Shown one piece after another: positions 32,677 through 50,294 of a stretch of 64,000 nucleotides of DNA (its first letter is position 1; each line of letters opens with the position of its first letter). This DNA is from Dacryopinax spathularia (Eukaryota; Basidiomycota; Dacrymycetes; Dacrymycetales; Dacrymycetaceae). Below the pieces are notes generated by a model, which was not told the DNA's origin, ran no database searches, and saw only the letters and a list, made by a program, of their open reading frames with translations. Position numbers and translations under genes: made by a program. The stretch is taken from contig JBBPFI010000007.1 in assembly GCA_037974965.1 (NCBI GenBank), forward strand, positions 186,001 through 250,000, given 5' to 3'.

Positions 32677-32772
<96 letters not shown>

Positions 32773-33060
32773 TGGGAGACGTGAGACGGGAGATGGGAGA
32801 TGGGAGATGGGAGACAGGAGACGGGAGATAGGAGATAGGAGATGGGAGATAGGAGATGGGAGATGGGAGATGGGAGAAAACAAATGGAGAACAATATTTG
32901 GGAAATAGTAAATAGAACAAGTTTTTTGAGAAAAGTTGCAAATCAACAGAACAACCTATAACATCAATTCTGAGCTTATGGTTGAATATGTTGCACAGGT
33001 TTGCTCTCAGATTGAGCTACACAATAAGGTCTTAGTGATTGCCTGTCTGTCTAGCAGAGC
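30257..33060. repeat. Gene-poor, lower-GC debris with a minisatellite
   Basis: No splice-consistent gene is seen on either strand in about 2.8 kb. Base composition is visibly more AT-rich than in the flanking genes, with many GT/GA-rich runs (for example 30920-31000), as in old repeat-derived DNA. I could not recognise terminal repeats or conserved protein motifs that would allow a family name. The 7-base minisatellite at its right end is listed separately. Confidence 0.45.
32675..32877. repeat. 7-base minisatellite (GGAGACA / GGAGATG)n
   Basis: About 29 head-to-tail copies of a 7-base unit. The first part is nearly pure GGAGACA; the second part mixes GGAGATG, GGAGACG and GGAGATA. Because 7 is not a multiple of 3, all frames stay open on the minus strand and give Ser/Pro/Leu repeats, which are not genes. 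Confidence 0.95.
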
Positions 33061-33343
33061 CTATTTTTTCCTATCGACTTGCCCGACTAGTCTCCAAATC
33101 TGCGCGAAAGTCAACTCGTCGCCGACTACCGGTCCGGAGCGAGTCAGCCAGCATTCCTGGACAACGAAGTTGGGAAGGTCTTTACTGGATGGACGTTTTG
33201 ATGCCGCACTGCGACCTTCTAAATGGGGACAGCATCGCTTTACGTTGCCTTGATTACGTACACTAGGCGCTGGTAACATATGTCGCGTAGGGTACTCTCG
33301 GGCGCCAATGATAATATGATACACTTCGTCTCATAGCGTACGC

Positions 33344-34005
33344 CTATGCCTGCGTTTGTCCGATCCCGACTAGTCCTCTCATCTGTTCTAGCAAGCGATC
33401 CTGCTCTTCTTTCTCGGATCTAATTTGCTGAATGGTACGCTCCTGCTTGTCTTTTTCGTCTTTGAGTTGCTTGATGAACTGCGCATATACCAGGTTCGTC
33501 GTGGTCAACTCGTGCACGCTTTTCTCGAGCTCGGCTATACGATCCTTCAACTGGGCGACTTCCTCTACTTTCGCAGCGTTATTCTTACGCGGTTGTATCC
33601 CCTGGCGGGGAGGCTTACGACGGGGGTGCATAGGCGGCAGAGTAAGAGGCTCGGCGGATGAGTCGTCACCGTTTGTGGACGGTGAAGCGTGTACAGTAGG
33701 GCTGGTTGTATGCGCGTCGTGCTCGGTAAGTCCTTCGTTTTTGGTAGTTTGTCCAGGCTGAGACGTTGACGTATACGCTGCGTCGGTTGTCGTCTCCTGC
33801 GTCACAGCATTGGCACCGCCGTCGTTGTATTTGCGGCGCTTAGGGGAACGACCTCCGTCATCTGAAGCTTGCCGTTTGTTGCGCAGTTCTTGCGATACGC
33901 GGAGGATCATACGCTGGAAGAATATTAGAAGGGCAATGTAATCTGCCGGTGCGTTTGTCTTACGGCCACGTATGCGTCTTCATCAAATTCTGAGTCGTTG
34001 GGCAT
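33344..34005 (-). CDS. Coiled-coil nuclear-type protein of the Helitron-like element
   Basis: Two exons (34005-33964, 33913-33344) give 612 bases, 203 residues. The first exon encodes MPNDSEFDEDAYVA. The central part is disordered with a likely nuclear-localisation cluster (SPKRRKYN), and the last 80 residues form a strong coiled coil (VAQLKDRIAELEKSVHELTT, then KQLKDEKDKQERTIQQIRSE). No family is recognised. It is transcribed away from the Rep/Hel gene, the two starts being 256 bases apart, so they may share control. Coiled-coil partners are plausible for a DNA-processing complex, but that is inference. Confidence 0.75.
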
Positions 34006-34226
34006 AGCGTTTGTCTTAAAAAGCGGTGTGTGTAGAGGACGTGGTGGTATGAGGTTGGAAGGCAGTGACAGTTAAGTGTTGAATTGTGCGGCATTGTAAG
34101 ACCGCGGGCTGATACAAGTCATCCACAATCGGAAGAGTCACCCACAGCGTCGCGCGTTGTACCAAGGCGCTGCTAGTCTACGAGACCATGCTGTACACCT
34201 GTGCGGAAGTGTCTCACGCGCGCTGT

Positions 34227-34233
34227 TATATAA
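34227..34233 (+). promoter_or_regulatory. TATA box of the Rep/Hel gene
   Basis: TATATAA stands 28 bases before the ATG of the large helicase gene, implying a very short 5' leader. It is a perfect TATA word in an otherwise GC-rich promoter. Confidence 0.55.
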
Positions 34234-34261
34234 CATTGGCACTTCTGGCCGCTAGCGGACT

Positions 34262-37200
34262 ATGGCCTCTTACGTTTGCACTCTACAGGATCGCGCTCGT
34301 GTTCTGGGACGAGGTTCGAGCTTCCCAGTTTCTGATTTGAACGCCGGCTATACCTTTCAGCGCGCATACAAAAGCTGCGACGACGTGGATATGGCGAAGG
34401 TCTATGAAGACACCTTACTCCTGCGCGCTGCGATAGGTGAAGTGATCGTCGTTTATAATCACTTCTCGAAGTCGCATTTGCTCGACCTGTCGCGTCTAGT
34501 CGGTATCGTCTTCACACGCTTCGTGACGAAGGGTACAATGGTCGGCAGTCTTACGCAAGACCGCGTGAAAGACATCTCACTTGTCTGGCGGTTCAAACTT
34601 CGCCGGCGAGAAAGGGTTTATGAAGGACTTCGAGTGGACCCAGCCGTCCTCCATACGCCTCGTGTGCCGAAGAGACATCATGAAGATACCGCGGCAGATA
34701 CAAGGCCCGGCAAGAGGGCTGCTCGCTTCCCTCCAGAGCACGATGAAGACCTCGTGAACTTAATCATTGCCGAATATCAGCAGGCGACTAGCCCGACGGC
34801 TCTAGAACACGGCGTCTGTGGCAGCTGTGCGGAGCGCAAGAAGTTGCTAGACTTGCGTGCCGTGTCGGTTAATGACTTGGACCTTACGCCTTTACAAAAT
34901 CGACGTATTCCGGCGAACTTGTTACCTACGACATATTCGCTTCCAGCGTACGACTCCGCCATTCTAGATTGCCGGGGTTTAAGTAACCCTTGGGTACGTC
35001 AAGGCTATTTGTACCTGTGCGCCCACTGCAAGGCGTCGATTGGCAAGGGCGAGCTGCCGCTCTTGGCGCTAGCAAACGGGTTCTACTACGCCCACGAGCA
35101 CGTTCCTCCTGCAGTTTCTGCTGCCTTTTCCGCCGCGACTTTCGTCGATCGCAAGCTCGTCGCGCGTTGCTCGGCTAGCAAAATCTGCTTCAGGTACTTC
35201 GATAATCCGGAAAGCCGATTGTATCGCCGCGGAGTGGATGGAATGCAACGTTATTGCCGGGGCAATGTGCTCATCTTGCCCCAGGATAATATCACGCTGC
35301 ACGACATACTGCCTCCACCAATCGATGACGTGAAGGATAGCTTCGTCGCCGTGTTTGCAAGTCGAGAGCCTCCTACTCCGGAAGTACTGCGTCGCTTGGA
35401 GCCTCTTAAGGCGAATGCGCGTACCGTGCGAACGATTTTATCTTTCTTGATATCGCAAAATCCAGCATACACTTGCGCGACCGTGGACTTCCCCACGGGA
35501 ACTTCATTCTCTCAAGCTCACTTCGACGCCCTGTTTCCGGAAGGCGAAGGGGACGCGGCCTCCCCGCGTCTGTTCCCTTTCATGGAAATAGGGCATGTCG
35601 CTCTCAGTGAGGCGCAAGTTGCTGCCGAGTCGGATGTTGCCGACAGAAATGGGTTCGCCGACTCCGATGTTGGTGAGCGCGATTTTTTGATGGAGGCGTC
35701 CGGTTATTCCGCAGCGGATCGATCTGCGCAAAGCTATCGGGCCATGAAAGCGGACGCGTTGGCCCACTGCCTCGATAAACAAGGCGCATTCCTACTCTCG
35801 CGCCGAGGTAACCGGGCAGTACAAGACTTGCGGAACGAGTTTACTCTGACGTGGATGTTCCCACATCTCGACCCTTTTGGTCTAGGAGGATTCGACGATC
35901 CTCGGCGGCGCAGGGCTGTGCCTATGTCTAAGCAGCTTTCGCATTTGCTGAATTTGGCAGACGGCCGGTTTCAGTCGGATCCTACTTTCGCGTTCGTCTT
36001 TCATAGCATCTTGCAGAAGCGCCAAAGTCTGCGCGATGCTCTATTCCGCGTCCCGGAGGGCGCGCATGATCGGATCGTGGAAGGGATAAAGAATGTAGAT
36101 GTGGAGATTTTGGTGGATTTGGCGCGGCGATTAGAGGTCGATAAGTGGACGCAAGCTGTATCTGATGAAGAACGTCTTGCTTTCAGAGTACTCCGACGCA
36201 TACATATGTTGCGAAAGGACGCACCTGGAAGCGACGCATACAAGACCTGTCGTAGGAACGAGATCCGCGCTCTGATTTACCACTTGGGCTGTCCGGCACT
36301 CTTCGTTACCCTCACGCCGAATGACATAGATGGCCTGCTGTTTCAAATGGCTTTGAAGGGTTATGAAGGCATGGACGACCTTATTAAGGGTGCGACGAGA
36401 TCGAGTCGTTTTCAGCGTGCCATAATGGTTGCGGAAAATCCAGCCGCGGTTGCTCGAGTTTTTCACGAGACCATGGAGCGGTTTAAAACCATAGTCCTGC
36501 GTTTCGGTAAAGGTCCTGGACTATTCGGGGTTTGCACCGGCTTCTACGGCATGGTCGAAGCTCAGGGACGGGGTACTTTACATTGCCACATGTTGATATG
36601 GCTCGAAGGTAATCCGTCGCCGGCCGAACTCCGCGAAAAGATGGTTGACGAGGAGTACAAGCGCAAGGTACTGGAATGGCTGGAGCGTTTGATTAAAACC
36701 GAACCTCCTGGTACTACCGACGTCATGATAAAGGAAGATCCGCGCGTGCGAAGACCGACGCTCGCTAAAGATGATGTAGATCCGAGAAGCATACCTGGTC
36801 CGTCGATTACTACACTCGCTCCAGATGAATTCCGCGGCGCATTCGAGCGTCATGTGTATGATCTTGTGTGCCGCAACAACTGGCATGAGCACAGAGCGGG
36901 ATGTTGGATACACCTCAAACAGGGTGAAGAGAAATCCGATGAGAAGTGTCGGATGCGTATCGATGGAACCACACGAGCGGTTTCTACTATCGACCCCGAT
37001 ACGGGCGCTATTTTACTTCGGCGCCTTCACCCTTGGGTAAATGAATACAACGATGTCATGATGTTCCTTTTCAAGTCGAACATGGATATTCAATACATTG
37101 GTTCTGGAGAAGGTGCGAAAGCCGCGCTTTTCTACATCACCGACTATATAACAAAGTCGTCTTTGAAAGTGCACGCCGGTATGAGCGCGTTGATTTATGC

Positions 37201-40123
37201 CATCCAGAAAAATCACGATAAGTTCAAAGATAGTCCCGGTTCATCCTCGCAAGCGGAGAGTCGGAGTTTGGTGAACAAAATGGTCAACGCCATGATGTCG
37301 CGCCAGGAGTTGTCCCACCAACAAGTCATGAGTTACTACGTCGGAGGCGGCGATTGCTATACGTCTCACACATACGCTGTGCTGCAATGGGGTCGATTTT
37401 CCAGATTAGTCGCCAAGTTAGAGTGCGCCTTACAACCCACCGAGGCGTCTCTGCGCCCGGAGGAAGAAGACGCCGAGGATGTCTATCCCGACGAAGGGTA
37501 CGAAGATGACTTCGTTGGTCGGAAGGCGAACCTTACCCTCAGCATACTAAATGGCGACGTTTCGGCCGCGAACCAATGCCAGGACTATCTGTGGCGGCCC
37601 TTACTCAGCGCGTTTGAAAAGCTTTGCTTGTATGATTTCGTCGCCACGGTAGTAAAAGAAGTCGTTCCTAAGAACGGCGATCAGGATAGGCCGGCGCCCT
37701 TGCAGAACACATTTGAAGACATACGTACGAAGACATTGCGTGGGTCGCTCCAACAGGATCATCCGCAGTTTAAGACCCACTGCCTTAAGTACCGGCTCCG
37801 CCGTAGTGTCCCCGTATTGCTAGGCCCGTCGTTACCAAACAAGGACGCTTCCGACATCGAGAACGGAAACTGGTGTCGTGCTATGCTCATAATGTTCAAG
37901 CCTTGGCGAGTTCTAACAGATCTGAAGCGTGACAACGAGCTATGGACGGAAGCTTTTGACCGCTACGAGTTCCATAGCGAGCACAGGTCGGTTATGAGGA
38001 ACATGAATGTCCTTAGGGAGTGTAAAGATGCCCGCGATTCTGACTTGCGTGGCAAGCTACGGGGGCGTCAGTCTATGCAACGCCCTGAGGAGCCCGCCGA
38101 CCTCGGTATGGACGAGCTTGCCGACTGTGTTATGATGGACGACGACTTGGGTCATTCCGATCCATACGAAATCAGCGAGTCGCAAGGCGAGGGAGGAGTC
38201 GAAGCAGATATCTATCGCCAGAATCAAGCGGATTGCCTTAACTCCGCAGCGGGGCTGTCAGTACTTATGCGCGACGACCAATCGCTCGCGCCCTGCATAC
38301 CAGCGCGCACATCCTTAAGTACTCGGCGTTCTTTACTCTCCGATATAACTCAGCTAAAGCGATGTGCCGATGAGCTGAAGGAGTGGAAAAAAGACAAACG
38401 TCCTCAGCGAACCGACGCTAACGGGGCCGTGCAAACTGCCCTTGATACGCACCCGGACGCTTCTATCGCTCGCGTTGTGAGTACCTCCGCGCCGACTACA
38501 ACTTCTGAGCCTCGTTCGCTTCCACATGAAGACGTGCAGCTAGCATTCGAAGAAACTGCAAGAGAAAGAGGTCTGAATAGCAATGAAGAACAGTTACGGG
38601 CGCTAAGAATCGTCGCGAACCACCTCAGTGTGTCGCAATCAAAGCAGCTCTTCTTGTACGTTGGCGGAGGTGCGGGTACTGGGAAGAGTCATCTCATAAA
38701 GTGTATCGAGGATTTATTCAGCAAGCTACATATTCGAGACAGTCTCTTACTGAGCGCGCCTACTGGAGCGGCCGCCGTCTTGATAGGCGGGTATACAATC
38801 CACGCCCTTACTCTCTTGCCGTCTCAGCCTCGCAGCAAGCCCAACCTGTCGCTCCTCGATTCCATATGGCGAGCAGTAAACTGGCTTATTATTGACGAAG
38901 TCTCTATGGTCTCCGCTCTCTTTTTACACGAAGTATCGGAGCGCATTTGTATGGCGAAAGGAACGCCCCCGGACGTAGCCTTTGGCGGCATCAATATCAT
39001 TTACACCGGCGACTTCGGACAGCTCAAGCCGTTCGGTTCCTTGCCTCTGTATAGCAACCATCTGCTTCGCCAGGTAGGATCGAGATTATCCCAGCGTCCT
39101 ACTGGTCAAGCAGCCCTCAATGGCGCGTTACTATGGCGCTTGCTGGACTCCGTTGTTCTGCTGAAGCGGAACGTAAGACAAGCCGGAGATAGAAAGTGGG
39201 CGAACCTGCTAAGCCGGCTGAGAGTTGGACAAGCGTGGACGGGCAGGGAGTACCGGAATGACGAACAGGTAGGAGACGGGGATAACTACGAGGCGTCCGA
39301 CTATGACGTGCTCTGTAGTCGGCTTCTAGAAACGTTAGGGGGAGATGGCGGGGAGTGCCCATCCGCATTTCAAGACGCTCCGGTTATCGTCGCAACAAGA
39401 AAGCTACGCAACATGCTCAACATACTGCTCGCTAGAAAACATGCTGCTCGTCTAAAAGAGCCGTGTCACTTGTACTTTGCGCAAGATTACCTAAAAGGTT
39501 CTCGTATTGAAGGAGAACTCCAGCACCGGCTTTGGAGAGCCGACATCAAAGAAGCGGACTGTCAGCCGTATCTTCCGCTCTTCACTGGTATGCGCGTGAT
39601 GCTTACAGAGAATATGGCTATTTCGAAGAATCTGGTAAATGGTACCACCGGGGTTGTTGTCGGAATCCGATACCAAGAGAGCGCGGATCATATACGCTTC
39701 GCAGACGGCGTTTATGTAGAGATAGAGACGTCGCCAGTACAGCACGACGGCTTGCCGCCGACGATCGTATGCGTTCAGCCGGTCAAGTCTACTTTTCAGT
39801 ATACTACGACGGCATTCGACGGAACGACTGTCCAATATGCTATACGCAGATTACAACTACCCATCCTTCCGGCATACAGCTACACCGATTATAAAAGCCA
39901 AGGCCGATCCCTAGAAAAAGCCGTAGTGGATCTCGCAGGGTGCCGTAGCCCACAAAGCGCCTACGTTATGCTGTCTCGCGTCCGCACCTTGAAGGGTCTC
40001 GCTGTTCTCAGACATTTTACACCTCGGCACATTTATGGGCGTCAGCCTTCAGAGTTGCGGGAGGAGATGAATCGCTTGGCATACTTAGATGACATGACAA
40101 AGACAGACGAGGGAGGGTATTAA
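34262..40123 (+). CDS. Helitron Rep/helicase (RepHel), single exon, looks intact
   Basis: One open frame of 1953 residues. An N-terminal region has Cys pairs (GVCGSCAERKK near 200 and CAHCKASIGKGELPLL near 255) as in fungal Helitron proteins. The Rep nuclease follows: VTLTPNDIDG, then the HUH motif GRGTLHCHMLIWL (His774, His776) and the two-tyrosine motif FYITDYITKS (Tyr958, Tyr962, Lys965). These nick and join single strands in rolling-circle transposition. The PIF1-type helicase occupies about residues 1430-1950, with Walker A GGAGTGKS (Lys1475), Walker B LIIDEVSM (Asp1545) and the C-terminal YTDYKSQGRSLEKAVVDL. No intron and no stop interrupt it. The lack of decay suggests a young or recently active element. 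Confidence 0.95.
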   Translation: MASYVCTLQDRARVLGRGSSFPVSDLNAGYTFQRAYKSCDDVDMAKVYEDTLLLRAAIGEVIVVYNHFSKSHLLDLSRLVGIVFTRFVTKGTMVGSLTQDRVKDISLVWRFKLRRRERVYEGLRVDPAVLHTPRVPKRHHEDTAADTRPGKRAARFPPEHDEDLVNLIIAEYQQATSPTALEHGVCGSCAERKKLLDLRAVSVNDLDLTPLQNRRIPANLLPTTYSLPAYDSAILDCRGLSNPWVRQGYLYLCAHCKASIGKGELPLLALANGFYYAHEHVPPAVSAAFSAATFVDRKLVARCSASKICFRYFDNPESRLYRRGVDGMQRYCRGNVLILPQDNITLHDILPPPIDDVKDSFVAVFASREPPTPEVLRRLEPLKANARTVRTILSFLISQNPAYTCATVDFPTGTSFSQAHFDALFPEGEGDAASPRLFPFMEIGHVALSEAQVAAESDVADRNGFADSDVGERDFLMEASGYSAADRSAQSYRAMKADALAHCLDKQGAFLLSRRGNRAVQDLRNEFTLTWMFPHLDPFGLGGFDDPRRRRAVPMSKQLSHLLNLADGRFQSDPTFAFVFHSILQKRQSLRDALFRVPEGAHDRIVEGIKNVDVEILVDLARRLEVDKWTQAVSDEERLAFRVLRRIHMLRKDAPGSDAYKTCRRNEIRALIYHLGCPALFVTLTPNDIDGLLFQMALKGYEGMDDLIKGATRSSRFQRAIMVAENPAAVARVFHETMERFKTIVLRFGKGPGLFGVCTGFYGMVEAQGRGTLHCHMLIWLEGNPSPAELREKMVDEEYKRKVLEWLERLIKTEPPGTTDVMIKEDPRVRRPTLAKDDVDPRSIPGPSITTLAPDEFRGAFERHVYDLVCRNNWHEHRAGCWIHLKQGEEKSDEKCRMRIDGTTRAVSTIDPDTGAILLRRLHPWVNEYNDVMMFLFKSNMDIQYIGSGEGAKAALFYITDYITKSSLKVHAGMSALIYAIQKNHDKFKDSPGSSSQAESRSLVNKMVNAMMSRQELSHQQVMSYYVGGGDCYTSHTYAVLQWGRFSRLVAKLECALQPTEASLRPEEEDAEDVYPDEGYEDDFVGRKANLTLSILNGDVSAANQCQDYLWRPLLSAFEKLCLYDFVATVVKEVVPKNGDQDRPAPLQNTFEDIRTKTLRGSLQQDHPQFKTHCLKYRLRRSVPVLLGPSLPNKDASDIENGNWCRAMLIMFKPWRVLTDLKRDNELWTEAFDRYEFHSEHRSVMRNMNVLRECKDARDSDLRGKLRGRQSMQRPEEPADLGMDELADCVMMDDDLGHSDPYEISESQGEGGVEADIYRQNQADCLNSAAGLSVLMRDDQSLAPCIPARTSLSTRRSLLSDITQLKRCADELKEWKKDKRPQRTDANGAVQTALDTHPDASIARVVSTSAPTTTSEPRSLPHEDVQLAFEETARERGLNSNEEQLRALRIVANHLSVSQSKQLFLYVGGGAGTGKSHLIKCIEDLFSKLHIRDSLLLSAPTGAAAVLIGGYTIHALTLLPSQPRSKPNLSLLDSIWRAVNWLIIDEVSMVSALFLHEVSERICMAKGTPPDVAFGGINIIYTGDFGQLKPFGSLPLYSNHLLRQVGSRLSQRPTGQAALNGALLWRLLDSVVLLKRNVRQAGDRKWANLLSRLRVGQAWTGREYRNDEQVGDGDNYEASDYDVLCSRLLETLGGDGGECPSAFQDAPVIVATRKLRNMLNILLARKHAARLKEPCHLYFAQDYLKGSRIEGELQHRLWRADIKEADCQPYLPLFTGMRVMLTENMAISKNLVNGTTGVVVGIRYQESADHIRFADGVYVEIETSPVQHDGLPPTIVCVQPVKSTFQYTTTAFDGTTVQYAIRRLQLPILPAYSYTDYKSQGRSLEKAVVDLAGCRSPQSAYVMLSRVRTLKGLAVLRHFTPRHIYGRQPSELREEMNRLAYLDDMTKTDEGGY

Positions 40124-40532
40124 GCAGCTTCTCTGCTTCCGTAGGGTTCCTGTGCCTGAATGTAAAAACCGCCGAGTAAAGACGGATGTATGCGCACCAG
40201 CCTATGTCTTGCTCAGCTGGGGTATTGTCCACCGCCTTCTCTTGATTGAAACGCACAGCTTCCTGTATCAAAGGGGGCCCATACGGAATTGCTCGCAGGA
40301 TCTATCTCGCCGTGCTTCTTTTTCTGGACGACACACTTGGTACAGCCTTGCCAGACCATTAGCCAGTCGCAGATCTTACTCTCCACCGAGCACCCTCGCC
40401 TGTTACAGCTTCGCCATAGCTTTAGAAGCACCGCCTGTCTACGCAAATCACCGCCTTCACCACCGCTTTGTAACTGCCTTCTTAGCACTGCCATGGCTCC
40501 CAGGACATATAAAGGTTCGCCAGTTTTTTGCC
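40124..40532. promoter_or_regulatory. Spacer between RepHel and the 346-residue gene
   Basis: No exon is seen. A TATAAA word at 40508-40513 precedes the next gene. No Helitron-type 3' hairpin plus CTRR end is visible here, which argues that the element continues to the right. Confidence 0.4.
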
Positions 40533-41772
40533 ATGGCGTATAGCGTCCAAATGGCTAAAACGAGTAACAAGAGAAAGAGCATCTCTCCATCCAACGAGGA
40601 TGTGCTAGCGACGCGCCAGCGGTAGGTCTCTGAACGATTCGCTCCGCACTATACACATCCTTACATGCCACAGGCGCAATCCTGATACTTCTGACGAAGT
40701 GGTACCCACTCTTCAACGTGAAGATACGAACAATACGCCTGTAAAGGGTCGCCTGTTCAAACCTCAGCTGGATAGGGTCAATGCGTCTCCCTCTTCTCAC
40801 AGTGAAGATACCATACAATCCCTCTCGCCGCATGAACTCGAGCACGCAGACAGGAACGTGAGCTCCCTCCAAGGCGACCAGTCTGATGAAGCAGAGGCCG
40901 ATATACTCCTAGGCTCTCCCAAGACTTCCGGCTTAACTGGCAAAGGCGTTCAGTTAGACATGGGCAAGTATGACGAGGAGCTACAAAGGCAAGTCGCGTC
41001 ATGCAAAGGCACGGCGCAATTTCTTATCTTTCCATAGGCGCATCGTTGCCATGCGTCAGTACAGCGATAAAGCGCGCGCCGTCTACTACGTCACGCAGTT
41101 CCCGTTGGATCTGCGCTTCGGATACAAGCAGGCCGTGAACATGTCGAACTACTTAGTACGCAGCGACAATTCCGCCGCATTAGTGTGGATTGTTGGCCAC
41201 GTCGCAGCCGCTCAGTTACAAGACGAAACTAATGGGACCTGGCCAGACTCAGTTTACATCAGCGTGAAGCCCTTGACTCGGGAAGATACTAAAGCCGCTA
41301 CGCGACTGTGTAATGAATACGCCAAACCGCAGCTTGGTACGGATACGCTGGTTGTGAACTGCTCAGCCTCGACTGAAACGCTCATTAGATCTTGATTTAA
41401 ACCCGTTCGGCACTATTCTTGCAAGCCGTTTCCAAAAGGGCTACAAGTCGCCTAAACCCGTACGAATAGCAGAGGCTACTGGACTAAACTGACGATGTTA
41501 AGCAGGCCGCCGAATTCAGAGACGTCTATGATGCTCGAGAAGGCATGAAGAAAAAGCGGGAGATGAAGCGCTACCCTTGCACTAAGATTAAAAAGAACGA
41601 TCTCATCCTCATGGAATGTCGCGTCAAGAAAAGGTTCGACGCTCGTGATAGCGAAGACGACGCTAGGAAGGACGATGCCCCTTTTAGGATAAGCTTCTAT
41701 CTAAACGCGCTTTACCTACTGGCGGAGGGCACAGAAGAGGATGACGAAGACGGCGTGGAGTACAACTTCTGA
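40533..41772 (+). CDS. 346-residue element protein with a possible OB-like C-terminal domain
   Basis: Five exons (40533-40621, 40674-40988, 41038-41336, 41389-41459, 41506-41772) give 1041 bases, 346 residues; an in-frame ATG at 40551 may be the true start because TATAAA lies only 20 bases before the first. Intron 2 begins with GC (GCAAGT). The N-terminal 140 residues are disordered and acidic. A folded middle follows (AVYYVTQFPLDLRFGYKQAV, SAALVWIVGHVAA). The end reads KKNDLILMECRVKKRF, then FRISFYLNALYLLAEG and an acidic tail. The alternating strands around LILMECRV and FRISFYLNAL look like an OB fold; this is inference. A role in binding single-stranded transposition intermediates would fit the neighbouring RPA70-like gene. 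Confidence 0.72.
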
Positions 41773-41820
41773 CAGACTCTTAAGAGTAGCATGCATTGCG
41801 ACTACGTTGAGATACAAGGC

Positions 41821-42514
41821 TCATTCGTCCAATATAAAGGTAACGTCCCTGTGGAACAGCGGGTAGAGATCCGAGGTGGGAACTAGCTCTTGTGTAACAT
41901 AGTTACCCGCAATCAATTGCTCTCTTATCCCTTCCACTTCGCTGAGTCCTATGTCACCGAACTCCATGCAGGATGCCTGTACACTGCTGCTGCGCCGTAG
42001 AACCAGTTGAGGATACCGCGCGCCCAGACTAGGTTGCGAAGGATTCGAGGTCGTTCGATACTCTTCCACAACTAAGTAGCTTGCTTGCTGCCGACCTCTA
42101 CCGACGCAAATCGTACCCGTCGCAAATGGCCCAGTTATCCAAGAACGCACGTCAATGGCGTGCACGTCGCAACTATAATCGGTCGAGATCGAATAGTAGA
42201 TGGACACGGGTACTAAGCAGCCCGCGGGTTGCGTCGCCGTTACACAGAGGGCTTGTGTGGGTACCTCGGAGAATGGGACAGGTGCCTGTCAGTGGTAAGC
42301 TGTCTAACGTGTAGATTGAGCGTCGCACTTACCTCTCGCCGCTGCGGTGGGCCCCATGCAATCTTAAGAGTTGGCACGACCTCGTACCAGATGTCATGGC
42401 CGCCTTCGTTCTACCAGCCTGATAAGCGCCGATTATGATATCTCGCACTTTAGTCACCTCCACTGTTCCCTTTCGCTCGTCCCTCAGCGCCGTTGTTATG
42501 AGAGCTGCTACCAT
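41821..42514 (-). CDS. Family-X protein 1 of the element (unknown function)
   Basis: Three exons (42514-42449, 42410-42333, 42285-41821) give 609 bases, 202 residues. No known domain is recognised. It pairs with the plus-strand gene at 43577-44356: both have two phase-0 introns and a 78-base second exon, and they share short patterns such as YLVVEEYRTT against YHVIVEHRTT, SCMEFGDI against SCIDYGNV, and TQELVPTSDLYPLFHR against TKEILPQSSMYNILHR. The conserved region is rich in alternating hydrophobic residues, as in beta-strand proteins. It converges on the 346-residue gene, the two stops being only 49 bases apart. Function cannot be read from the sequence. Confidence 0.72.
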
Positions 42515-42781
42515 ACTGTACGTGCGCAGAAAAGTTAGAGATCAACCCTTAGTAGTGACCGTTCGTGGACAAAGACGCTCAAGTGAGTAATAGGGGCTCA
42601 CACTCGCATTGCACCCTGTAATACTTCCGCACTTCGCCCCCGTGTCTTTAGCCGTATCTGCGCAATGAGATTAAGACGTGCATGTCGTAAGCCTGCCCCA
42701 TGTGATATCAAGGCGACTCTCCACACCCTTCTACACTAGCGACCATTCCGTTAACAAATCTGCTGCGAAGTTAAGTTCCCC

Positions 42782-43281
42782 TCAGCGTTGTTGTTCTCCA
42801 GCGTACCCTGTAACCAGCATATCTACGACGGTCCTGTCAATATTGTCCATATGGACCCAAACTAGGCTCCCTCCTCTAGCGACCCATTTAGTCACCACTA
42901 TCGGTCCCTTCCATACCTTGTCCGTCAGCTCTAACAGTGCAATATTGATATGGCCCCTGTTCTGTTCTGCATACTCGACCTTAAAGAACCATTTCAGCTT
43001 CACGTCCGTGCCTGGAATGTACTGCAGCCGTATTTGGTAAGCTGAGCTCCACTTCGGAATCACATCGGTGACTTTCGGCACCAGAATTACTTCCAACGCC
43101 GCACTCAGGGTATGAATGCCTCGAATCTTCTCTATCTCTCCGCGACTGTGATCAGGACGATACACTACGGCACGCACTCGATCCTCATCCTGCTTGGTCA
43201 ATCACGGCAAACTATCTACTGCGACACATTACTCACCGCGCATGGAAAGCTAAGGCACTCGCACTCGTAGCGGTTCGGCAT
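42782..43281 (-). CDS. 150-residue element protein of unknown function
   Basis: Two exons (43281-43237, 43189-42782) give 453 bases, 150 residues. It starts MPNRYECECLSFPCA and continues with beta-rich segments (EVILVPKVTDVIPKWSSAYQ, VKLKWFFKVEYAEQN, HINIALLELTDKVWKGPIVV). No family is recognised. It is on the same strand as family-X protein 1, 267 bases upstream of it, and is divergent from family-X protein 2, with the two starts about 300 bases apart. The splice sites are good and the frame is clean, so it is probably a real gene. Confidence 0.62.
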
Positions 43282-43576
43282 CCTGTATTATCTTGCCGCT
43301 TCTGTTACTGGCCGGTCTTTTATACAGCGCCCAACTACACACTCGCCCTTGTCTAAAGCTGTGCGGACGGTCTTGTCTCTGTTCCATATCATGTCGCACC
43401 CGACATGATGGACGCATTCTCTGTCCACACCCTGTCATACGTTACGGCTACAATTGATTCACGAGACAATGCGGTGAGTACGTCCTCCTCCTCTCGGCGG
43501 CTTCCAAGCGCCGCTGTTATCCATCTTTCCCCATAAATACTGTTTGAGCCGCGACAGGATCTCTGCAGCTAATACT

Positions 43577-44356
43577 ATGGCGGCTCCTGACTCACCGCCT
43601 TTATACAGCAGAGGGCTACCTATGCTGGACGTGGCTGTCCCAATCCAAAATGAGCATGACGCTGTGCGCACTCTCCGTCTCCCACTAGGAACGAAAGCTA
43701 AATCCTGCGCCAGGCTCAAACCACTGGTCTCATTCGCTGCCGTGTGGTGGAAACCATCGTAATTTTACCCTCAAATGCACCGACCCCTTTGGTAAAGTCG
43801 ACTTTACCCCATATTCCCGTAGAGTTCTCACGCGGTTTCTCAGCCAACCTTTCGCCACACGCTTATGCGCCTGATAGGCCTCCTCGTCCCTCTGGACGCC
43901 GCTCCTCTCCTCGTACAGGTGCCCTTCAAGTTTACCTTGACCTCCCGGAACTCCATGCGTCTTTACGGCCTTGCTATTCAAGACCTCATCCAAGGCCCAT
44001 ACGCGGAATACCGAGGAGTACACAAGTCGCAGGATGAATATACCGGCGCCAGCCGCAAACAGGCCTATCACGTGATCGTGGAACATCGCACTACTAAACC
44101 AGTACCACGAATTAAAAACTCCGCTGCATTAAAAACGCCAGCACCAACACTCATGTCGGAGTGGTGTGGCGCGGTTCTCGTATTTCGATACATGCGCTGG
44201 GAGAAAGTTGACGACTCTTGCATAGACTACGGCAATGTGGTAACGGGGGACGTCGTCGACATCCTAAACATGCTCGGTAAAGGGCTGCCGACGAAGGAGA
44301 TTCTTCCGCAGAGTTCTATGTATAATATCTTGCACCGCAGCTTCTACACAGCTTAG
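43577..44356 (+). CDS. Family-X protein 2 of the element (unknown function)
   Basis: Three exons (43577-43663, 43714-43791, 43823-44356) give 699 bases, 232 residues; the last intron is only 31 bases, short for this genome, so its boundaries deserve checking. The protein is a paralogue of the 202-residue gene at 41821-42514 (patterns given there). Additional matches include VPFKFTLTSRNSMRLYGLAI against VSIYYSISTDYSCDVHAIDV. The two copies are diverged to roughly one identity in three or four, so the duplication is old relative to this copy of the element. No known domain. Confidence 0.68.
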
Positions 44357-44669
44357 TTTACTACGCATCGCAATACTGTACGGCCTCAGGTACAGCGTGA
44401 AATGAGACTTCTGAGTACAGCGTGAGTAATGAGACTGTTCTACCAAGCATCACCACTTCCTCCACAGCCCTACAGCTCCTCCTTATTATACCTGCGTGTC
44501 TACCCAAAACAAACCGTCCTCCGCGAGTCTCAGACGAACTGCCACAATCCTACTCTCCCTCTTGTACACACCGCCTTCCTCTCACAGGCGAATACAACCG
44601 CCAGACTATAGGTCTGCAGCAGATATAAAAGCGTACCACTTACGAAGTTAGAGAGTCATCAAACTCCTC
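44357..44669. promoter_or_regulatory. Promoter of the 226-residue gene
   Basis: No exon is seen. TATAAAA at 44624-44630 lies 46 bases before the downstream ATG and is the only clear TATA word in the stretch. Confidence 0.45.
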
Positions 44670-45399
44670 ATGCCTTCTGCTACCTTCCATACCACAACGC
44701 CTACTTCTCCTACCTCCCGGTTGACCGTCACGTTGACTCCTATCATGTTCGTCCTTCCTCTACTTTCTCGTCATTTCCATTGTAGCTCACTAATCTACAG
44801 CACGACGCCTATCTGTAATTTAACGCCATGCACAGACTGCGCCCCTTGGCTCGCTCATCTGGGCAAATCACTGGACTTATTGACACTTCCCTTTCCTAAT
44901 AGCGCCGCGTGAGACTACCTAATTCTCCCTATCCCACTTTACCTAACACCAACGCAGGCGGCCTGCCTCAGCCTCGGCTGTCCTATCTCCGCTCAAACTC
45001 ACCGAGGGTATAAACGTCGACAAGAAATGCTACACGCCGCCCCTTATACCAAGTGACTATCCGTCGCCCACTGGCTCGCCCTTCAGCCTGGATATCAACA
45101 GCGGCGACCATCCGGCGCCAATTCCATCCTGGAACATCCCGAGCTTCTCCGATGCTGATACCTTGCCACGCCAGTCCGACGGCGACATGCGCTTGACTCC
45201 CTCAACCTCGCTTGCCACTACAGCCACAGGGACGGAAGCTGCTCTCATGGACGTCGCGCTCTCCCTCACTAACACAGTCGAGGTGCTTCGTAGCATTGAG
45301 AGGCGCCAAGAGCTTCTGATGAAGCGGACCCGTAAAGCTTTACGCTACAACAGGAAAGTGTCACGTAAATTGCTGCGGTTGTACAAAAGGGGCCTCTAA
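44670..45399 (+). CDS. 226-residue element protein with a basic C-terminus
   Basis: Two exons (44670-44908, 44958-45399) give 681 bases, 226 residues. The N-terminal half has a Cys pair (CNLTPCTDCAPW). The middle is Pro/Ser-rich. The C-terminal 60 residues form a helix (ALMDVALSLTNTVEVLRSIE) followed by a strongly basic tail (KRTRKALRYNRKVSRKLLRL) that could contact nucleic acid. No family is recognised. The next gene, RPA70-like, starts only about 200 bases downstream on the same strand. Confidence 0.62.
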
Positions 45400-45595
45400 T
45401 TAGAGTGCACACACTTTAGAACATGCATGACTAGCTTGTACTCATATAGACCAAATGACATGCACCCTTCCACGGAAGCAAATCACGGGCGCTATTGTGT
45501 GACTTGATACAAGCGGAGTCTGAATATCGCCACCTAAAGTCAACCGCCCTAGCTCGCGCATCTTTCCTTCCTACCACCACGCCCCCCCTAACACA

Positions 45596-48059
45596 ATGTC
45601 GTATCTCAAGCTTACCGCTGGCGCCTGCCGCAACATGCTCATCGGCCAGGTTGCCGAATATTCGTGCATCGTACAAGTGCAGAAAGTTGTCCCGTACCAC
45701 TTCAAAATGGGCGACGATGTCAAGATCAATCAATACTTGTATGCGCGCCGTCATTTATTTTGTTGCTCTACTTACTTACCTTCCAGCAGCTTGGAGCTCA
45801 GCGATGGTACCAACTATATCGTCTGCACTCTACATCCCGACCTCTACTCCCTCGTCGAAAGAACAGAAGACGAAGTGGCAAAAGTCAAGCAGTTCAGTAT
45901 GGTTCGCGTTGAGGGTTTCGTCAGGACCGTAACCTTAGGAGGTCGCATGTGCGTATCATATATGCACTGTTCTGCAGACAACCTGATCCTCTTCCAGCAC
46001 CGTCATCGTCACCGAGCTGAAGGTACTCAAGGATATGACGGCATTGAAAGGAAACCCGACCTTGTTGACGCTGACCGAACAAAACCCTACCCATACCACG
46101 TCTACGTCTCGTCAGCGTACTGCTTCGTCGGGTAAACAGCTTACGCACATCCCTTTTAACGCGGCTTTGCTTCCCGACGATGGTGCCGACAAACCCGCAA
46201 CTTATTGTATCATTAAGAAGGCCGCGAGCAATCCTATTCCCAAGGGATCTCGTGTCCACAAACGTTACCGCATTGCCGACATCAAGAGCACCACCACGAG
46301 GTAAGCTCTTCGGACATCAACACACATACCTGGCCAGTAACCATATCACGCCGCAGATTCTGGGTCGTAGCTCGTTTGACTCGCAAATCTACCAAATCAG
46401 AATATAGCAGCGATAAGGGCTCAGGCGCTCGCCAGCTGCTTACTCTGCACGACGAATCAGTCAGTCTCTTTTTTCTTACTCGCGCTTCACTTACTCACGC
46501 GGCTTTGACAGGGCGAAATAGGTGCTGTCGTATGGAACTCCGCTGTGGAAGCCAGCGACAAAATGGTCGTGGGCAAAGTACATGATAGCTCAGGTCTGTC
46601 GCCTCCCTGCTAACAACCCTCTAGGTATATGCACTCCATAATGGATCCACCTTGCCTCGCAATGCAGCAACAAACCCGATCCCTCATTCCGCCCAGCTCA
46701 ATTTCAATCCGGGCGCGAGATTCGAAGAGGTATGAGGCAAAGCTTTCCTTAACCTTGCAACTCTGACGACAACCAAGGTTGCGGACGATGGTTCCATCCC
46801 ACGCCATTGGTTCAACGCCATCGATCTTGATCGCGTAGCGCATCTGCGCGAGGGCGATTATTTCGGTGCGCATGATATATGCACAGCGAATGACACATTG
46901 TTTGACCTGAGCTTAGATATTCGCGCCATCATACACTCCGTTGGAAAAGGCGTCAAGTTCAAGCCAAAGTCGGGCAAGGTACTCATCACGTTATTCTCAC
47001 GCGTCTTCCCCTCACGCCTTCGTCTAGAAAGATACGCCTACCAGTTTCCTTGACGTCTGCGTTGTAGACAAATCGCTTGCCATGCTGAGGATTTGCGTCT
47101 GGCAAGACTTCCGCGCAGACTTCGAAGGACAGGAAGGGCGCGCTGTCTCTATTAAAGGACTGAAGTGGGATTATCATATGGGTGCCAGTGGCATGACTAA
47201 GACGGGCAGAACTATCATCTGGTACGACGACGAGTCCCCAGCGCACAAAGAGCTTTGCGATTGGTAAGCAGCTTCTGCCCGCGCTCGTTTTCGCCTCCAA
47301 CAAATAATAGGTACGCGAGGCAGAAGACAACCACCTTCCACCTTCTTTCCGCCCTCTTTACCGCATCCGGTAACAAGCCGGCCGACGCCACCGACCCCGG
47401 CGAATGCGTTACTATCCAGGACGTCGAAGAACGTGGTTTAGGCAAGCGCGAAGAGCCCGACACTTTCGACCTCATTGCAGATATCGAGGTCATCTCAACG
47501 GCGGAGGTCGGATATTACGCCTGCCGTGATTCGGAATGCCAGCGTCACGCCAAATACCTTGAGGACCAGAAGATATGGTCCTGTGACTCATGTGGCACTA
47601 CCTTCCGCAACCCACGCTTCCTGTACGTGTCGTCGGTTACAACAACTGGCAAGCCTAATATATGCGCAGGTTCCACCTCTCCATCCGCTTGGATGATGGT
47701 AGTCCCAATACTGTTGTCGCTACATCTTTCGATGATGTCGGCAGAAGCCTATTCGGCGATCTTGCTATCACCCTCCACCGACTCCAAAACAGCGACAAGG
47801 TAATTGTAGTCTCGCGACCCTAGTCCGTATCTAACTCGCGTACTAGGACGAGGACGTAGAAACCTTCGAAGCCTACCTCGATAAAGTGAAGGGCCGCTAT
47901 CGCGTCACTGTCGATGCGCAGACGACCGTCAACGAAGTCCCGAATGGCCATGTAAGTCATGCCGTCTATACAACTCCGCCGCTAATCCTCCCACAGACGT
48001 ACGTCAACGAAAGCTGGATCATTTCCAAGATGGTCCGCGATGGTCCTGACACCGACTGA
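45596..48059 (+). CDS. RPA70-like single-strand DNA-binding protein of the element
   Basis: Twelve exons (45596-45738, 45787-45948, 45998-46300, 46357-46459, 46512-46577, 46625-46729, 46778-46978, 47028-47263, 47311-47622, 47670-47799, 47847-47951, 47997-48059) sum to 1929 bases, 642 residues, the full length of replication protein A subunit 1. The N-terminal OB fold reads LTAGACRNML and LELSDGTNYIVCTLHPDL. DBD-A reads RFWVVARLTRKS, LLTLHDESGEIGAVVWN and GKVYALHNGSTL. DBD-B has DIRAIIHSVG. DBD-C has the zinc ribbon Cys511-x4-Cys516-x14-Cys531-x2-Cys534 (WSCDSCGTTFRNPRFL). The last strand is RFHLSIRLDDGS. It should coat single-stranded DNA in the nucleus. It could be the host's own RFA1, but its company of element genes makes Helitron cargo more likely. 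Confidence 0.85.
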
Positions 48060-48396
48060 GCCTCAACCGCGTCCTTTACGAACTGCTTCCACTCTTCTCA
48101 TGCACTGTACAACACGCACGGTTACCAATGACGACCCGAATACCACTCCCCGGCTTGAAGAATTCTTTGTACCGAATGCCCCTCATGTAATCCCACGGAC
48201 TACTCATGATAATGGATGCCGTTTACTGTATACTGGTGTGAGTCCCAGGCGTCGAACTAACCCTTTCTGCAAGCAGACATACCCCTACCTGGCTTAAGGT
48301 GCGTATCATCATGATCGCCACCGAATATAGTACTAACTACATCTTCGCAGATACACTCAACATTCCTCCTACTATCCTTCCACGATATCGTTTCAC

Positions 48397-48844
48397 ATGC
48401 TCACCTTCACGTTCGGCAATCCAAGTTTGACTCTACCGCCTCGCCCACCGCATCCTTCCGCCCAGCCTAAATATGTGTGTACGCCCTAATACTAGCAACC
48501 ACATTATTTACTAATGCTTCATAAAGGCACGCCCTTCATTCCTACTATTCGACTTTCTAACCGAAGTCGCTTTCCCTTATCCCGTGCGCATTTTATTCTT
48601 GCGTAATTATACTGGCGACGCTGACGTAATTGCATCCGCTTCCGCGTCCAGGATAATCACGTGCACATTCATGACTCTCCTCCGCGTCGAGGAAGGACCC
48701 TACTCGACATTGCTAATTGCCTCCGCCCTCTCTGGGCGCTCGTTCTACTCACCAACGCCGTCTTTACTCGCACGACCTCTCTCGACTCTTCAACAACGAC
48801 ATCTATACCTCTCGGGACAAGTTACAACTTCTAGCAATTCGTAA
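48397..48844 (+). CDS. 131-residue element protein, model uncertain
   Basis: Two exons (48397-48474, 48527-48844) give 396 bases, 131 residues starting MLTFTFGNPSLTLPP. The second exon contains strand-like segments (LTEVAFPYPVRILFLRN, ASRIITCTFMTLLRVEEG, HLYLSGQVTT). The size and the position directly after an RPA70-like gene invite comparison with a small RPA subunit, but I cannot see diagnostic residues. An upstream exon chain from about 48129 or 48211 is also possible. The 337 bases between the RPA70 stop and this start contain intron-like words and may belong to it. Confidence 0.45.
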
Positions 48845-48896
48845 GTACTAACGTTCTCCGTTTAATTAAACAAAAACTGACCTGCTCGTACAGCAT

Positions 48897-49584
48897 ATGC
48901 CTGCTGTTACGCGTTCTGGAGGACGCGGTGGCGGACGTGGCGGCAAGGTACGCATATACGTCCTTCTCGTACAACTTCGACTAATCTTATAACAGAAAGG
49001 CGGACGTAATCGCCCGGCTAGCACCTACAAGGCGTCTATAAAGAACGGAGGGTCGACTAAAGCAGCTCCTAAAGGCGACAAGGGCGAAACGGAAGAGGAA
49101 GATGCAATGGTACGTCTCGCAGCACTTTCACCCCTTTCCACATTCTCTAACCAACCGTTTCTTACACAGGACATCGATCCACCGGCCGAAGATACTACAG
49201 CCGCCAGTACTGAGGTGCGCCCATACTTTGTCGCCAGTTACTTAGCTAACGGAGCGTTTCTAGACGCATACAGCTAACCCCGGCGATCATACTACTACGA
49301 CGTCCACGAACATGGCGACGGACGACCCCATCGTCCTTACCAGCGGCGCCTCGACGACTAGCACCAACGTCAACTTCGACAATCTCGTCGGTGCTAGTAC
49401 TGCCCTTCTTCGCGACAACCAGTCGCAGCTCGGTATCCTCGTCTTGCAGAACCTCGATCATATCCGCCAACTCGAAGCCGACCTGGACGCTGCGAACGAC
49501 GAAGTCGTCCTCGTTAGAGCTCGCCACGATCGTCTGCAGGCCGCCTACGATAAACTCCGCGAGGAACTTCAGCGCAGGCACTAA
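48897..49584 (+). CDS. RGG-motif and coiled-coil protein of the element
   Basis: Four exons (48897-48947, 48996-49109, 49170-49214, 49264-49584) give 531 bases, 176 residues. It begins with a Gly/Arg box (RSGGRGGGRGGKKGGRNRP), a typical nucleic-acid-binding sequence. An acidic and Thr-rich linker follows, then a coiled coil over the last 70 residues (LGILVLQNLDHIRQLEADLD, LVRARHDRLQAAYDKLREEL). No family is recognised. With the left-end coiled-coil protein it brackets the element, and the two might interact, but that is inference. Confidence 0.68.
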
Positions 49585-50294
49585 TGTCGCCCAGTGCCTA
49601 CCGTTATACAACACTCAGTCGCCTGTACCAGTTCGCTACTTCAAGCTCTCGCCGTAGATTACATTACGAGTCCTTTTGTACCTAGGATTAGTTACAAACT
49701 ACCGCGTGTAATGCCATACAGTACCCTGTCCGCTTACTTAAGCATCTCTTATTAAGCATCTCTTACACTTAAGCATCTCTTATTAAGCATATCTTACTTA
49801 AGCAGCGTTGTCCAGGCCTGCGCGGAGCGGTTGACTATTAGTCATTATCCGTTAGCTTCTTTGTCGCTTCCGCAGCTCCGAGCGATCCTACGCTTCCTGT
49901 AAGGTCTTCTTGTCCCTATGGCTGTTTGCGTAGGATTCTTGGTGTCCTCAGCTTTTGAAACTCGGGCCTAGCATTCTCATGGCTGCTTTCCGCTTGTTTT
50001 GATACTTGTCAATGATACCGGCTCAAGCAAGTACGCATGAAGCTTCAGTGCTCTCGAACGACGATACCTGGCTCGGCTTGGCTGGCTGTGGCTTGCGGCT
50101 GGCCATGCCCGGATCATTGCTTGTTCGGAGCATTTACCACCTTTGGGTTCACGAAATCGTCGGGCCAAAAATGAGGTCTACAGTCTGTCACGTTGTGACC
50201 ATAAGTATTGGACATTCAAGGAGATGCTGCCATCAAATACACGCCTCTTCCTGCGAACCCGTCTCTGAGGCAATAATCGCGCGGCCTATCCTCC
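49585..50294. other. Right flank of the element and upstream region of the dead MCT copy
   Basis: Apart from the tandem repeat, no exon is visible. The switch from element to host DNA should fall between about 49805 and 49975; a CCTAG word at 49967-49971 is one candidate end but lacks an obvious hairpin. Confidence 0.4.
49734..49804. repeat. Short tandem repeat near the right end of the element
   Basis: Four to five copies of a TTAAGCATCTCTTA-like unit of 14-17 bases, each starting with the palindrome CTTAAG or TTAA. It lies between the last element gene and host DNA, where Helitron-related elements often carry subterminal repeats. Confidence 0.7.

Follow-up and report, generated by a model that had tools for sequence, protein, structure and literature searches.

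A giant Helitron2-like element of Dacryopinax spathularia carries an RPA70-like gene within a long-linked set of accessory genes

Helitrons are usually seen as transposons of one or two genes that lean on host replication proteins and gather gene fragments. A 64,000-nucleotide stretch of the basidiomycete Dacryopinax spathularia (the window, bases 186001-250000 of contig C7 in a host assembly of 29.2 Mb and 24 contigs, labelled C1, C2 and so on) holds a gene for the Rep/helicase transposase (RepHel) amid a row of other genes, and it raises the question of whether these form one mobile element and whether they work for it. The original prediction was of a single giant element whose accessory genes belong to it and would recur around RepHel at unrelated loci, and this is strongly supported: the window contains a single intact Helitron at 33154-49838 (16,685 bp), and the same genes lie near RepHel in three near-identical copies, in full in two further families (B and C) and in part in a third (D). 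By blastn of the window against fetched stretches, the copy on C12 is 99.91% identical to the window element over 16,689 bases (15 differing sites), and the copy on C9 is 99.06% identical over 16,686 bases (126 differing sites and one 31-bp gap in a repeat). On both sides the identity of the three copies breaks off no more than two bases from the same places, with the ends the same and the flanks different. As the flanks are unrelated, the three copies go back to separate insertions, which excludes a segmental duplication, and a host-gene cluster beside a lone RepHel is ruled out by their stopping at the same bases. Copy identity and comparison of the ends also correct the predicted limits of 33060 and 49960, which were ~95 and ~120 bases too wide. 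The structure is real beyond chance, with its 1,953-residue frame, its three terminus-to-terminus copies and its codon-position-biased substitutions. The window element with its C12 and C9 copies is referred to as family A; families B and C are full-length and far diverged, family D was read in part, and the three A copies with B, C and D make up six elements. The elements of families B, C and E lie as follows:

C7:1026987-1044675: family B element, 17,689 bp
C1:1300934-1318520: family C element, 17,587 bp
C7:1684860-1696939: family E element, smaller, 12,080 bp

The linkage of the accessory genes to RepHel is ancient and under constraint. By tblastx, families B and C show RepHel and the genes numbered G2, G3 (minus strand), G4 (minus strand), G5, G6, G7 and G9 in identical sequence along the element and on matching strands, and family D has G2 to G7 in the same order over the 9 kb read, in which RepHel lies outside the alignment and G9 gives a weak 13-residue match. 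Among families A, B and C the proportion of synonymous differences (pS) is near saturation at 0.72-0.87 (0.58-0.72 for G9), and the proportion of nonsynonymous differences (pN) is 0.25-0.27 for RepHel, 0.20-0.37 for G2, G3, G4, G5 and G7, and 0.38-0.51 for G6 and G9. Protein identity between families is 45-67% for the core accessory proteins and 61-63% for RepHel. Because sister elements carry the same set, the extra genes appear to be old working parts and not accidental passengers. The recent past tells the same story, as the changes between the C9 and window copies number 13 of 3908 sites at codon positions 1 and 2 of RepHel and 22 of 1954 at position 3 (p 0.0004), 17 of 4224 and 23 of 2112 in the accessory genes (p = 0.002; against non-coding sequence p = 8e-5), and 51 of 4488 in non-coding sites; this codon-position bias, with the open frames, indicates that the accessory set has been under constraint recently too.

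Of the accessory genes, the searches of the whole genome covered G2, G3, G4, G5 and the RPA C-domain, and all genome-wide match counts given here are lower bounds. At E≤0.01 every match to G3 (10 exon matches), G4 (6 matches) and G5 (10 matches, three of them weak cross-matches to G3 at E ~0.008) falls within the six elements. The two patterns that were to speak against a single element, namely accessory genes in host surroundings without RepHel and RepHel copies ending right after the helicase gene, were not seen: G3, G4 and G5 are without a match outside the elements, and the families read run on past the helicase. The 56 matches to G2 were merged by hand to 25 loci, 24 of which have a same-strand RepHel 4.2-11.5 kb upstream; the remaining one (C5:1827867) lies 6.6 kb behind a 5′ end and has no RepHel match, and C5:1821232-1827867 is perhaps a decayed or non-autonomous element. 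Divergence of RepHel and of G2 correlates over eight loci (Mantel rho 0.82, p 0.004), a test of limited power because identities among the deepest groups are only 30-40% and one locus offers only 130 G2 residues.

The transposase was predicted to be intact, and its open frame confirms this:

34262-40123, plus strand: RepHel transposase, 1,953 residues, with DUF6570, Helitron_like_N (HUH, YxxxY) and PIF1 helicase by Pfam

The HUH motif and the two tyrosines of YxxxY that mark a Rep protein read LHCHMLIW and FYITDYITK in the window element, and a Pif1-type superfamily 1 helicase lies in the same protein (PIF1 E 1.4e-17). HUH, YxxxY and Walker A are kept in all 12 aligned sequences, three of these being the window element and its copies. 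The closest named relatives over residues 540-1010 come from two other Dacrymycetes, Calocera cornea (60%) and C. viscosa (52%).

Judged by its ends, which are made up of the features listed here, the element is Helitron2-like:

33154..33172, plus strand: 5′ terminus TTCCTGGACAACGAAGTTG, in which the asymmetric inverted repeat has its 5′ arm and the first T possibly belongs to the target; the identity of the three copies begins here within two bases
49736..49803, plus strand: subterminal short tandem repeats, TTAAGCATCTC-like, of which 31 bp are absent in copy C9
49806..49816, plus strand: 3′ arm of the asymmetric inverted repeat, CGTTGTCCAGG
49821..49838, plus strand: short GC inverted repeat CGCGGAGCG and 3′ terminus ...GACTAT, a possible hairpin with a 3-base stem; the final T possibly belongs to the target

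The sequence is TTCCTGGACAACG at the 5′ end and CGTTGTCCAGG CCTG CGCGGAGCG GTTGACTAT at the 3′ end. The asymmetric terminal inverted repeats that define the Helitron2 variant are present as CCTGGACAACG at the 5′ end and CGTTGTCCAGG 22 bp inside the 3′ end, and this end plan is common to families B and C (with two mismatches in the 3′ arm) and to family E. The ends, T[T/C]CCTGG...ACTA(T), depart from the canonical Helitron1 form (5′-TC...CTRR-3′, target A^T), and the host base left of the insertion, A in four and G in two of the six insertions read, fits neither that target nor the TT or T-run target of Helitron2 and Helentrons. One T per insertion could belong to the element or to the host, and beyond it the six insertions continue on the right with T, T, A, C, C and T. 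Family B lies in repeated sequence, and two diverged paralogues of that sequence (84% and 88% along the flank that matches) have the target uninterrupted; the comparison shows insertion without target-site duplication, with no gain or loss save one T, only one of the two sites being read well past the junction. Precise empty sites had been named as a check in the original prediction; they were obtained in this diverged, paralogous form for family B, not for the window copy or from sister strains, and the other five insertions have no unfilled paralogue listed by a search that skips very common words. Allowing two mismatches at most, the genome has 29 instances of the 5′ end pattern (2 for the reversed control), of which 20 stand 2.0-5.7 kb before a RepHel, at 19 loci. 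The 3′ end pattern GCGCGGAGCGGNTNACTAT occurs 16 times with up to one mismatch (reversed control, 1), and 14 of the 16 pair with a same-strand 5′ end within 30 kb, 11 of the pairs enclosing RepHel and three forming mini elements. The paired ends give elements of 11.5-17.7 kb. In a single case, the insertion of copy C9 (C9:1151212), the joined target is a perfect palindrome, GCTGTATACAGC, cut at its centre. The host DNA immediately left of the window element holds a short GGAGACA-type tandem repeat (window 32690-32880).

Introns of the genes around RepHel were modelled by script from RepHel codon use and from conservation among families A, B and C, so that the exon borders are predictions. Nine genes are supported, these being RepHel, an RPA70-like gene and seven genes without a Pfam match above cut-off, and the nine predicted models are open in all three copies (G3 in frame; G5 by its main exon only). 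Ten genes had been proposed, of which the one at 48.1-48.9 kb was rejected as a weak model with no match in families B and C. The accessory genes are:

33344..34005, minus strand: G0, 203 residues, 2 predicted exons, with a basic stretch and a coiled coil
40533..41772, plus strand: G2, 340 residues, 5 predicted exons, fold not recognised; the most widely shared accessory gene
41821..42514, minus strand: G3, 199 residues, 3 predicted exons, a diverged paralogue of G5
42782..43281, minus strand: G4, 150 residues, 2 predicted exons
43577..44356, plus strand: G5, conserved in exon 43823-44356, with the first two exons uncertain
44745..45399, plus strand: G6, 201 residues, 2 predicted exons, fast-evolving, with a conserved CxLTPCxxCAPWLA motif
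45596..48059, plus strand: G7, predicted RPA70-like single-strand-DNA-binding protein, with the last exons uncertain
48897..49584, plus strand: G9, 176 residues, 4 predicted exons, with an RGG-like basic start and a C-terminal coiled coil

The two coiled-coil proteins (G0 and G9), the RGG-like start (G9) and the several unknowns of the original prediction are all present, G0 and G9 having only sub-threshold Pfam matches that are mostly coiled-coil. Families B and C each have a G0 counterpart of similar kind, at the corresponding position and on the same strand, which aligns poorly outside the start and the coiled coil. G3 and G5 are diverged paralogues by hhalign (probability 96% and 95%, E 1e-9 and 3e-8), and G4 was rejected as a third member of their family (E 0.057, probability 1%). 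A second OB-fold protein had also been suggested, and an impression of its C-terminal part made G2 a candidate single-strand-binding (SSB)-like OB protein; Pfam and PDB searches gave this no support, with neither a Pfam match nor a credible PDB match for G2. Against a set of 5.8 billion proteins, G2 retrieved nothing among the 8000 scored candidates that share most words (exon-sized fragments fell outside the length limits), and G5 had no match at E≤0.1 among 6507 candidates.

The claim of a full RPA70-like protein holds, in the form of the spliced gene G7. Its Pfam matches are to Rep_fac-A_C (E 3e-14), tRNA_anti-codon OB (9e-9) and REPA_OB_2 (4e-6), and it aligns with the PDB RPA70 chain 8rk2_A at E 8e-24 over residues 65-611. 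OB domains followed by a C-terminal zinc-ribbon OB fold, the mark of RPA70, are present, and the four zinc-ribbon cysteines occur in families A, B and C. RPA70 (RPA1) assembles with RPA32 and RPA14 through its C-terminal helix; inspection by eye suggests that the three element RPAs stop short of the final ~15 residues of host RPA1, a region in which the alignment can be read in more than one way. Over 582 aligned positions, the element RPA shares 23% identity with the predicted host RPA1 (C2:1633766-1635826), against 57-62% among the element families, so the element RPA is not a recent copy of the host gene. The 30 genome matches to the RPA C-domain were merged by hand to 25 stretches, 19 of which lie within 20 kb of a RepHel (~6% expected for random points), at 17 of the 45 RepHel loci; two pairs of stretches share one RepHel each, and the stretch at C2:1459007 is upstream of its RepHel. 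The view that RPA-like genes are known mainly from plant elements needs revision, as they have been reported also from zebrafish and sea anemone Helitrons and from Drosophila Helentrons (PMC4683698; the papers cited here and below were available in part, and statements resting on them extend to those parts).

The wider set of elements in the genome includes a second giant lineage of four RepHel loci, in which G2 is present and genes resembling the GRF zinc ribbon lie on both sides of RepHel. Each of these loci has five to seven exon matches:

C5:1058933-1081917: GRF-type locus
C7:1603321-1628626: GRF-type locus
C8:1241045-1263760: GRF-type locus
C14:808977-831997: GRF-type locus

With the GRF-like element protein as query, all 23 matches fall at these four loci, over spans of 22.6-25.2 kb. 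It is on this query from the element itself that the linkage rests, since the GRF Pfam scores at the GRF-type loci are 22.5 and 23.3 bits, where the curated threshold is 25.9, and the 8 matches listed when the genome was scanned with the GRF family itself all lie away from the four loci. The GRF zinc ribbon is a single-stranded DNA (ssDNA)-binding fold. The four loci have no RPA match within 20 kb, G2 of families A-C and G2 of the C5 locus are related by hhalign (99.8%), and the three loci read (C5, C7 and C8) carry a 3′ palindrome, CCTGG...CCAGGG. The three mini elements, which have both terminus motifs, are candidate non-autonomous derivatives:

C8:1018363-1018649: mini element, 287 bp
C11:969324-969639: mini element, 316 bp
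C11:801699-802222: mini element, 524 bp

Three further loci show other arrangements. At C1:439412-465786 the termini stand 26.4 kb apart and enclose RepHel, G2 and an RPA match, either as a larger element or as a nested insertion, and at C11:773593-788100 and C2:2418636-2433127 RepHel is accompanied by two RPA-like matches, on opposite strands, ~13.6-14.5 kb downstream and has no G2 match.

What, then, would the accessory genes do? The best explanation, and one we consider probable, is that of an autonomous, recently active rolling-circle transposon, a Helitron with Helitron2-like ends and a long-standing accessory set, which would supply its own ssDNA-handling proteins. In the proposed mechanism, modelled in part on work with Helraiser (PMC5876387) and otherwise on general background, RepHel would nick one strand at the ends, the helicase would peel off a strand of ~17 kb, and circles would form. 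The displaced 17 kb strand would need protection, which the element's RPA70-like protein could provide by coating it, making transposition less dependent on host RPA. G2 is proposed as a core partner or cofactor of RepHel because it lies downstream of RepHel at nearly every locus found, and G3, G4, G5, G6, G0 and G9 may have assisting or regulatory parts in the complex. In the other lineage, the GRF-like proteins would be parallel candidates for strand protection, and the short same-ended elements of 287, 316 and 524 bp have probably been moved in trans. The ssDNA-handling role is suggested by one recognisable protein, RPA, together with the GRF-like set of the other lineage.

Several observations weigh against this explanation. 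RPA is the only accessory protein with recognised biochemistry; G2, G3, G4, G5 and G6 have no Pfam match up to E 1, and G2-G5 have no credible PDB match. G0, G6 and G9 are fast-evolving, and G9 taken alone shows no bias to silent change, with four changes at codon positions 1 and 2 and two at position 3. Of the genome matches to the RPA domain, 14 of 30 exceed the family cut-off and 16 are below it, and 2 of 14 control genomes gave matches to the same family. In addition, an RPA match within 20 kb is absent at 28 of the 45 RepHel loci, so that not all Helitrons of this genome need RPA.

A stronger version of the self-supplied transposon is that these elements are near self-sufficient ssDNA replicons, equipped with a multi-protein machine of RepHel, G2, their own RPA and the paralogues G3 and G5, and that the second lineage, which shares G2, uses GRF zinc-ribbon proteins where RPA is not seen. 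We regard this as a tentative proposal, somewhat less likely to be right than wrong. If it is true, the exchange of RPA for GRF would mean that coating of the displaced strand limits large rolling-circle elements and that this limit was overcome at least twice independently.

The main rival is that the accessory genes help the element to withstand its host, in silencing or in checkpoint or repair signalling (an RPA-like decoy being one example), and take no direct part in the chemistry of transposition. Basic stretches and coiled coils occur in several of the proteins, G3 and G5 are a diverged pair of duplicates, and other fungal transposons, Helitrons included, carry TET/JBP genes thought to counter methylation (PMC12730594), all of which would suit such a role. 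The sole identifiable protein is by its sequence an ssDNA binder in which OB domains and zinc-ribbon cysteines are retained, and GRF-like zinc ribbons occur in the other lineage; both speak against this rival, which is unlikely. Captured cargo, in which read-through beyond the 3′ end would have taken up host genes that now travel as passengers (an origin suggested for the HELPO1 cap genes), draws on a known property of Helitrons (PMC6431247, PMC4289320), and RPA does have a cellular parent family. It is improbable here on several counts: no host parent of the kind expected under HELPO1-like capture was found, as G3, G4 and G5 are unmatched outside the elements (E≤0.01) and the element RPA is far from host RPA1 (23%); the order is the same in B, C and partly D at near-saturated synonymous divergence; changes between copies are biased by codon position; and the predicted genes have introns and run to full length. 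A recent capture event in particular is largely refuted by the genome searches with G3-G5 and the RPA distance. A composite, in which mobile genes inserted into a small ordinary Helitron and the whole then spread as a block, is very improbable, for the mixed orientations (G0, G3 and G4 on the minus strand) and the family E RPA match on the strand opposite to RepHel are outweighed by the same order in diverged families, the joint divergence of gene set and RepHel, and the terminus motifs inside C12 and C9, whose recurrence is only loose (1-3 mismatches) and resembles that outside the elements.

With self-supplied ssDNA handling preferred, the element has value beyond its own case. The conserved set of ~eight genes, the intact near-identical copies and the mini elements would make the needs of a Helitron besides RepHel testable gene by gene, the lineages with RPA and with GRF-like proteins form a natural comparison for the protection of long displaced strands, and several protein families stand without relatives found here. 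The literature search was confined to the openly licensed part of PubMed Central, leaving aside Repbase and subscription journals; there, no account came up of a fungal Helitron that carries RPA or of a similarly large conserved set of genes.

Among known systems, the rice Helitrons of a Mothra sister family are ~15 kb long and putatively autonomous, with RepHel and an RPA-like gene that was not recently copied from host RPA; these are the two genes named there, in contrast to the nine found here (PMC4683698). According to the same authors, plant Helitron RPAs form a plant-only clade, and Helitrons acquired ssDNA-binding proteins at least three times independently (PMC4683698). Helentrons, relatives of Helitrons with extra AP endonuclease and OTU protease domains, differ from the present element in that neither domain is matched in its RepHel and that TT insertion is absent in three of six insertions (PMC6431247). 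As to size with captured genes, limits of up to 14 kb for fungal Helitrons and 39 kb for those of maize are given (PMC6431247). HELPO1 of Pleurotus ostreatus spans 1.5-13.7 kb with one to four 'captured' genes, ends in T[C/G]...CTRR and encodes a RepHel of ~1,400 residues, and in the available description an RPA domain is found neither in the RepHel frame nor among the cap genes (PMC4289320). Both are basidiomycete Helitrons with genes downstream of RepHel, and capB recurs beside RepHel in several basidiomycetes (PMC4289320); capB, known here by its description, may be a relative of G2. The FoHeli1-5 elements of Fusarium oxysporum are ~5-11 kb long, with a gene besides the transposase predicted only in FoHeli3 and, in the part of the account available, no RPA-like gene (PMC5148889). 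Like the FoHelis, the present element has an HUH/Pif1 RepHel and an asymmetric terminal inverted repeat, with the FoHeli 3′ arm ~20-50 bp inside the end, and like FoHeli1 and 2 it inserts beside T without a clear target duplication (PMC5148889). Unlike them, the elements described here are 16.7-17.7 kb long and carry ~eight accessory genes including RPA, and the element goes beyond the fungal Helitrons found described.

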